Position numbers and translations under genes: made by a program
Shown here: positions 51,338-52,884 of the stretch, piece after piece
How positions within the stretch are numbered: the first letter of the stretch is position 1
Layout: each line of letters begins with the position of its first letter
NCBI GenBank assembly: GCA_902588925.1
Contig: CACIRB010000001.1
Span: forward strand, 84,218 to 148,217
Origin: an uncultured Pelagibacteraceae bacterium
Lineage (GTDB): Bacteria > Pseudomonadota > Alphaproteobacteria > Pelagibacterales > Pelagibacteraceae
Length of the DNA: 64,000 nucleotides
Direction of reading: 5' to 3'
The notes under the pieces: model-generated
What the model saw: the letters and a program-made list of their open reading frames with translations, nothing else
What the model was told of the DNA's origin: nothing
Databases searched by the model: none

Positions 51338-51496
51338 ATTTATTTAAATTAAGAGTTTATTTACCGCATAAACATTAACTAAATTAATAAAAAATTTTTT
51401 TATAAAAAATAAAAAATAAAAAATAATTTTTTTAAAATTCGCTTTTAATTAATGATTTGACATAAGTTGTATAAAAAAATAAAAATAAGTTAACAG

Positions 51497-51513
51497 CGAA
51501 TCAATTTGATTCG
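51497..51513. repeat. Inverted repeat CGAATCAA-T-TTGATTCG upstream of the K/A peptide gene
   Basis: Perfect 8-bp arms with 1-nt centre, 24 nt upstream of the ATG. Confidence 0.8.
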
Positions 51514-51536
51514 TTAAACTAAAAAGGGAGCTAAAG

Positions 51537-51635
51537 ATGCCTAAGAAAAGAAAAAAAGCGGCAAAGAAAACTAAGAAAAAAGCTAAGAAAAAAGCTAAGA
51601 AAAAAGCAAAAAAGGCTAAGAAAAGAAGAAAATAA
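51537..51635 (+). CDS. 32-aa lysine/alanine-repeat (histone H1-like) basic peptide (not in ORF track)
   Basis: ATG...TAA translates to MPKKRKKAAKKTKKKAKKKAKKKAKKAKKRRK; good SD (AAGGGAG), own candidate promoter region and downstream terminator. Confidence 0.8.
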   Translation: MPKKRKKAAKKTKKKAKKKAKKKAKKAKKRRK

Positions 51636-51653: not shown

Positions 51654-51698
51654 AAAAAACGCTTCTCATAACTTTTTGTGTGAGAGGCGTTTTTTTTT
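51654..51698 (+). terminator. Terminator between K/A peptide and carD (probably bidirectional)
   Basis: ACGCTTCTCA...TGAGAGGCGT stem, A run on the 5' side and T run on the 3' side. Confidence 0.88.
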
Positions 51699-52538
51699 AT
51701 TCGTCTAAAGGTTCGTCAGTTTCAGAAATAGGTTCTTCGACAGGTAAGTCAGCAGTTGGAGTTTTAGGAGTAGCGCTAATCGCTTGTGTTTGTCCACCAA
51801 CATTTCTCTTTAATGCTTTATCTAATTTTTTTTGAGTGTCTTCAGGTGATAAACTTAAAATTATCTGAAATTCTGACTGCATTCTTTCATAAGCTTTTTC
51901 AAAAAGTTGTCTTTCACTATAAGATTGATCAACCATAAGATCATCACCTTTGTTTAGATCTCTTACAACTTCAGCTAATTCATAAATTTTACCTGATGAA
52001 ATTTTTGCTTCATATTCTTGTGCTCTTCTACTCCACATTGATCTTTTGATTTTTGGTTTACTTTTTAATATAGAAATACATTTGTTTACTTGATTAATTG
52101 TTGCTAAAGGTCTTAGGTTAGATTGTTTGTTAACGGGTACCATACCATTAGCTTTATCTTTTTCAAATTTGATAACGTATGTTTCAACATCAATACCACC
52201 GATATTTATTTTTTTAAATTCTGTAATTTGACCAACGCCATGTTTTGGATAAACAACATAATCTTTAATCTTAAATTCTCTTTTTTCGGTTTCTTGTTTT
52301 TTAACTTTTTTAATCTCGGGTTTAACCTCGTTGGTTTTTGATATTCTTAAATTATCTACTTTCGGTTCATTTTGCGTTTCAGTAGTTTTTGAAACTTTTT
52401 TTATTTTAGGTGATTTATTTAGAATTTTTTTTGAAACTTTTTTGATTTTTTTTGCTACAACTTTTTTGACTTTTTTGGTTTTCGGTTTTGTAACTTTTTA
52501 ACTTTGGTTACTTTTTTCTTTTTACCTTTTTTTGCCAT
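51697..52538 (-). CDS. carD: CarD-family transcription factor with Lys-rich N-terminal tail; apparent 1-nt frameshift near 52494-52499
   Basis: Core FKIKDYVVYPKHGVGQITEFKKINIGGIDVETYVIKFEKDKANGMVPVNKQ...RMWSRRAQEYEAKI-type sequence reads open across the ORF-track start at 52143 up to a TAA at about 52491-52499; the MAKKGKKKKVTKVKK start (ATG 52536-52538) is in the other frame. Confidence 0.82.
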
Positions 52539-52557
52539 TTCTTTTTCTGATTTGCCT

Positions 52558-52884
52558 TTAAAGATTTTCTTTAAAATACTTTTCGTACTTATTTTGCTCA
52601 TTTTTAAATTTTTCATGATCCGTAGGAGGATCCTTTTTCTCACTTATGTTTGGCCAGATTTCTGAAAACTTTTTATTAATTTCTAACCATTTTTCGCTTC
52701 CAGGTTCAGTATCAGCTTTTATAGCATCAACTGGGCACTCTGGCTCACAAACGCCACAATCTATACACTCATCCGGTTTAATTACAAGCATATTTTTACC
52801 TTCATAAAAACAATCAACCGGACAAACATCTACACAATCGGTAAGTTTACACTTAATACAATTATCGTTTACAATATAAGTCAC
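52558..52884 (-). CDS. fdxA: 7Fe/8Fe ferredoxin (FdxA-type)
   Basis: [22 protein letters not shown]...[16 protein letters not shown]. Confidence 0.95.

Follow-up and report, generated by a model that had tools for sequence, protein, structure and literature searches.

Pelagibacterales bacteria carry a bona fide, monocistronic gene for a small Lys/Arg/Ala peptide, which is kept across the whole order, convergent with a carD-like transcription factor gene. We analyzed it in a 64,000-nucleotide stretch of DNA from an uncultured Pelagibacteraceae bacterium (the window), where it occupies positions 51537 to 51635 of the forward strand and encodes the 32-aa product MPKKRKKAAKKTKKKAKKKAKKKAKKAKKRRK, as traced by open reading frame (ORF) reading, protein searching, and carD-anchored synteny. 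SAR11 genomes rank among the most streamlined known, and SAR11 bacteria are among the most abundant in the ocean. That a tiny gene is kept at one place in every readable locus of such a streamlined order points to strong selection.

The peptide gene and its expression signals

The ORF had been predicted from the sequence of the window, and its translation was confirmed letter for letter. Lysine and arginine make up 23 of the 32 residues (0.72), and no other ATG-started ORF of at least 20 aa in the 64-kb window reaches 50% K+R. Dinucleotide shuffling of the 64 kb (100 shuffles) produced no ORF with 60% K+R or more.

The gene is most likely transcribed from its own promoter, which would be of the sigma-70 type. 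The -35 element TTGACA of the window lies at 51457 to 51462 (+; score of 10/12 with an 18-nt spacer), where the original prediction had placed it, and is identical at all 21 Pelagibacter loci. It was found in almost every readable leader of the order, with TTGACT in some genomes of genera g5 and g12. The -10 region, TAAAAATAA (51480 to 51488, +), has a weak consensus (TAAAAA/AAAAAT) within a highly conserved block, AAAAAAATAAAAATA, which was unchanged in 21 of 21 aligned Pelagibacter relatives. The predicted Shine-Dalgarno (SD) sequence also proved to be in place: the ribosome-binding region AAGGGAGCTAAAG (51524 to 51536, +) includes GGGAG at 51526 to 51530, with the ATG 6 nt further on, and GGGAGCTAAAG before the ATG showed no variation among Pelagibacter loci with MPK-type peptides.

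Downstream lies an intrinsic terminator (51654 to 51700) with a 17-pair hairpin (51654 to 51695) flanked by A and T runs; one such terminator-like hairpin was observed versus 0.2 expected. The terminator had been described as dedicated to the peptide gene. However, it also ends the convergent carD gene (stop codon at 51697 to 51699) and is probably bidirectional. A hairpin is present between the peptide and carD stops in nearly all loci, with a sequence that differs from genus to genus. We rejected an attenuator leader peptide as an explanation for the ORF: there is no codirectional gene downstream, and carD is convergent, with its stop codon abutting the terminator.

Conservation and length of the peptide across Pelagibacterales

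By protein search, the gene was detected in 21 of 297 genomes of the family, all in one genus, a count restricted by the composition filters of such searching. When the 21 loci were aligned, the region from TTGACA through codon 10 was near-identical, with in-frame variation after it. We also searched a public genome collection with a leader/start pattern (hairpin, GGGAG, and ATGCC), which gave at least 118 stretches; among the 80 matches listed, all belonged to Pelagibacteraceae/Pelagibacterales. Viral contigs did not contain the exact SD-start pattern. A pattern tally of 252 out of 397 genomes is not usable as a gene count, because the pattern also matches a second genomic place (the rhtB element; see below). 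Pooling the protein search and the leader pattern gave 140 loci, in which the same genome may have been counted twice, and 137 of these, from Pelagibacter, had an MPK... ORF of the peptide kind. The other three were a read-through to 114 aa, an ORF ending with the stored stretch, and an unrelated chance match.

The 50 distinct Pelagibacter coding sequences encode 23 to 35 aa and differ by indels that are exclusively multiples of 3, a pattern supporting the reading of the ORF as coding. An arginine-rich C-terminal cluster is retained although the length varies. Synonymous changes accounted for 34 of 68 codon variants when summed over groups, versus 18.5% expected for random single changes.

Searching the whole class with an 85-aa relative as the query returned no match. 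Composition correction penalizes such sequences and robs this empty result of information, so we turned to carD-anchored synteny. In this order-wide test, which is independent of the peptide sequence, carD served as the anchor, and the region convergent with it was read. The data set comprised 71 carD loci from nine genera of the Pelagibacter family (Pelagibacter, g2 to g7, g9, and g12, as sampled) and four genera of the sister family (g15 to g18). All 71 had a lysine-rich ORF convergent with carD: 68 were complete, one was frame changed at its end (L184), and two were cut at contig ends with the lysine-rich end of the ORF still visible. In complete loci, 34 to 70 nt separate the peptide stop from the carD stop. 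The original expectation that Lys/Ala-repeat ORFs would be conserved at this SAR11 locus thus holds throughout the order. Outside the order, 30 alphaproteobacterial carD loci were read, and none had such a gene convergent with carD; the single lysine-rich ORF flagged among them (L260) has the orientation of carD and is located upstream of it. With 71 of 71 loci inside the order and 0 of 30 outside, the gene at the carD locus is a Pelagibacterales feature as sampled.

Two loci deviate in detail. The peptide gene of L228 (genome G028) begins with GTG instead of ATG. In L184 (G006), a poly-A run close to the C terminus takes the ORF out of frame, giving a 47-aa product; this is either a sequencing error or a slippage site.

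The carD-like gene of the window (51697 to 52560, -; PF21095 CarD_C, E value of 1.2e-19) lies outside the peptide gene and is its one constant neighbor. It is frame-shifted near 52500 at a T run (52455 to 52605, -), which places the lysine-rich N terminus and the CarD body in separate frames. The relatives have open carD frames of up to about 280 to 314 aa. The break is probably an assembly error of an incomplete genome and possibly a real lesion. Pelagibacterales CarD proteins have a long, lysine-rich, H1-like N-terminal tail (e.g., at L196, L198, L199, and L201), so both convergent neighbors encode H1-tail-like sequence. The upstream neighbor is inconstant, being an AMP-ligase gene in the window and, in the sister family, a gene for what we take to be a CsaA-like protein.

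Peptide length varies widely between genera. Pelagibacter (g1) and g2 to g4 have 20 to 35 aa (e.g., MAKRRKKAKKKTKKKAKKRRRRR), and the outer genera of the Pelagibacter family have 31 to 58 aa overall: 31 to 38 aa in g5, g7, and g9 and 34 to 58 aa in g12, with motifs such as AAKKRKPAKKK. The sister family has 40 to 99 aa (e.g., MEELKVIFAKARKKAKKKAAPKKKRKAAKRKPAKKKAAPKKKK... and MEELKVIFAKARKKAKKKAAPKKKRKAAKRKPAKKK...), with AAPKKKRKAAKRKPAKKK repeats and the makeup of H1 tails and of AlgP/Hc2-type bacterial proteins. The K+R fraction of the longer relatives with AAPKKK/KPAKKK repeats is 0.56 to 0.61. Net charge ranges from +12 to +24 in most of the Pelagibacter family, reaching +35 in g12, and from +21 to +53 in the sister family. 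What is preserved is a dense array of positive charges set apart by small spacers; length, order, and sequence drift. Such retention of charge density rather than of sequence or length is the hallmark of a protein that binds polyanions electrostatically, as H1 tails and protamines do. In the CarD tree, g1 and g2 to g4 form a supported crown group within the family, and g5 and g7/g9/g12 branch outside this group. This topology suggests that the peptide was shortened towards the crown group, and the root between the two families is compatible with contraction in the Pelagibacter family as well as with expansion in the sister family.

A conserved hairpin in the 5' leader

The original prediction had overlooked a leader hairpin, AGCGAATCA-ATT-TGATTCGTT, at 51495 to 51515 (+; predicted at -10.5 kcal/mol, z score of -2.9), which is conserved throughout the order with compensatory changes. 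In its RNA form, AGCGAAUCA-AUU-UGAUUCGUU, it starts no more than a few nucleotides from where transcription is expected to begin. Of 144 distinct leaders, 143 are predicted to form a hairpin on the CGAAUC(A) arm. Across the order, the 5' arm CGAAUCA hardly changes, and the loop length and the stem extension vary. In the g5/g7/g9/g12 helix, six cells had changed on both sides, and 98.8% of the cells were paired, versus 26 to 48% when the arms were slid. Both the compensatory changes in the stems and the variable spacing between the arms (4 to 8 nt among leaders) favor an RNA hairpin, making a DNA operator at 51495 to 51515 less likely. In Pelagibacter, whose stem core is invariant, an operator is more readily conceivable. 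The palindrome is single copy in the genome assembly (one mismatch allowed; assembly about 62% complete) and therefore gives no obvious sign of being an operator shared by a regulon.

A second complementarity (CUCC/GGAG or CCC/GGG), present in the sister family and in g7, g9, and g12, would mask the SD sequence (e.g., in leaders L187, L190, L193, and L196). The exchange of CCC/GGG for CGC/GCG in the sister genus g17 is consistent with such a helix. These pairings suggest control at the level of translation, possibly exerted by the peptide. The complementarity is absent from g5 and from the crown group, and Pelagibacter and its crown relatives seem to have lost this putative SD-masking translational autoregulation.

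Rfam gave no match at the gathering threshold at the locus, the best local matches being under the family thresholds; a SAM riboswitch was rejected at 11.3 bits versus a threshold of 36. The Rfam rhtB element (RF01814, on the opposite strand; L171 and L172, from G035 and G003, respectively) shares GGGAGCTAAAGATGgCTAAGA (19 to 21 nt) with the start of the peptide gene at window positions 51526 to 51545. The element differs in place, strand, and structure, and the match is lost in other genera; we treat it as a coincidence or as unexplained.

Proposed function and comparison with known systems

We think it fairly probable, judging from composition and conservation, that the product is a nucleoid-associated, sequence-nonspecific polyanion-binding peptide that would first of all coat or condense DNA. 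Nucleic acid binding, DNA as the main target, and the role of the leader are inferred from the features described above. A disordered, highly basic peptide could act like the C-terminal tail of H1 or a protamine, its Lys/Arg side chains neutralizing phosphate backbones without sequence specificity and its alanines, at about every fourth residue, permitting helix formation once bound. It would then condense or bridge chromosomal DNA beside HU as a minor nucleoid-associated protein. HU-family genes (PF00216) occur alongside the peptide gene in these genomes, so the peptide would be an accessory component. Its output may be tuned posttranscriptionally via the leader hairpin, and in Pelagibacter, a streamlined branch, the protein may have been trimmed to about its charge-bearing minimum. 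The syntenic sister-family gene, with its 40 to 99 aa of repeats, lends strong, if indirect, weight to the H1-like reading. More tentatively, the gene might represent a universal protamine-sized nucleoid peptide, streamlined from an H1-like protein and autoregulated by its hairpin, that serves as a core architectural or charge-neutralizing component; we regard this fuller version as possible rather than probable.

A polycation of 20 to 35 residues would bind RNA, ribosomes, or polyphosphate in addition to DNA. The peptide could be a tiny accessory ribosomal protein or an RNA chaperone, with the hairpin as the means of regulating its own translation. A strongly structured leader, such as the one kept across the order, is also what genes of self-regulated RNA-binding proteins typically have, the SD-masking complementarity in g7, g9, g12, and the sister family resembles the leaders of self-regulated ribosomal proteins, and the expression signals are strong and conserved. 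However, a range of 20 to 99 aa with gain and loss of repeats would hardly be tolerable at a fixed rRNA site, Pfam and NCBIfam gave no ribosomal-protein match, and the locus is isolated outside ribosomal operons. We therefore consider an RNA- or ribosome-associated factor rather unlikely. Less probable still is a condenser of polyphosphate or another polyanion, in the manner of a granule organizer such as AlgP, with DNA binding as a secondary activity. The chemistry suits it equally well, and AlgP, a bacterial H1-like protein, sits on polyphosphate granules and is required for their even spacing (PMC9239181), but the peptide lacks AlgP's separate N-terminal helical domain, and we saw no phosphate metabolism genes nearby, the constant neighbor being the transcription factor gene carD.

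It is very improbable that the locus is a structured small RNA or leader with an incidental peptide. The leader and the first codons are indeed conserved at the nucleotide level, yet the coding sequences show in-frame indels only and an excess of synonymous changes, the K/R/A composition is kept while the ORF nucleotides differ between genera, the sister-family ORF is much longer, there is no same-strand downstream gene to regulate, and no Rfam family matched above its threshold. Finally, A-rich DNA favors lysine codons, but a chance ORF in AT-rich DNA, which the original prediction had rightly held to be unlikely, is refuted by the 0 of 100 shuffles with an equally basic ORF and, above all, by same-locus conservation in 71 of 71 relatives.

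If the peptide is a DNA-condensing, nucleoid-associated protein, the natural series from 99 to 20 residues would be a means of asking how little of an H1 tail suffices for function, and the peptide would offer a simple route into chromosome packing in small, DNA-crowded cells. By our own reasoning, a peptide of such extreme lysine content practically escapes tryptic proteomics, and annotation may easily miss so small a gene. Searches of open-access papers for SAR11 together with nucleoid, lysine-rich, or H1 proteins turned up no description of it, and Meyer et al. 2009 (PMC2704228) list no region recognizable as this one in their GC-ranked intergenic table, which excluded regions of <26% GC.

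The proposed likeness to histone H1 stands for composition, most clearly in the 40- to 99-aa proteins of the sister family. Pfam and NCBIfam contain no family for the 32-aa peptide or its long relatives, in a kind of test that low-complexity sequence weakens. The Hc1/HC2 Pfam models did not match the 32-aa peptide or the 58- to 99-aa proteins at E values of up to 1 to 5, in a comparison that HMMER's composition correction penalizes and that was run without a positive control. A winged-helix domain of linker histone H1 is likewise absent, the whole protein being of low complexity and without a Pfam match. The H1 comparison, as far as the sequences go, holds by composition rather than by demonstrated homology. 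Like bacterial H1-like proteins, the peptides consist of basic Lys/Ala(/Pro)-rich low-complexity repeats and gain or lose repeats in frame (20 to 99 aa across the order).

Eukaryotic H1 C-terminal tails and protamines have a similar charge density, and protamines, at about 30 residues, are also similar in size. Eukaryotic H1, however, has a globular winged-helix domain that the SAR11 peptide lacks, and we saw no sign of common descent with the bacterial peptide. HU-family proteins (PF00216) have a presumed nucleoid role in common with the peptide but are folded dimers of about 90 residues per chain, whereas the peptide is of low complexity. Chlamydial Hc2 (HctB), which binds DNA through lysine-rich repeats of variable number (PMC2848022), and Bordetella BpH1 are alike in their lysine-rich repeats, H1-tail composition, and in-frame length variation. 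They are longer (165 to 237 aa for Hc2 in Chlamydia and 182 to 206 aa for BpH1 in Bordetella pertussis, versus 20 to 58 aa and 40 to 99 aa in the two families studied here) and belong to another locus and another lineage, with no detectable profile match. The C-terminal domains of Pseudomonas AlgP and PhaF are alike in their disordered K/P/A repeats; AlgP has a 154-aa KPAA region, and KPAA-repeat peptides bind DNA in vitro (PMC9239181). In AlgP and PhaF, the repeats are a tail behind an N-terminal helical domain, whereas the SAR11 peptide is essentially all basic tail. Judged by these likenesses in composition, we would call it a minimal, protamine-sized, order-specific H1-tail-like protein with its own leader element.
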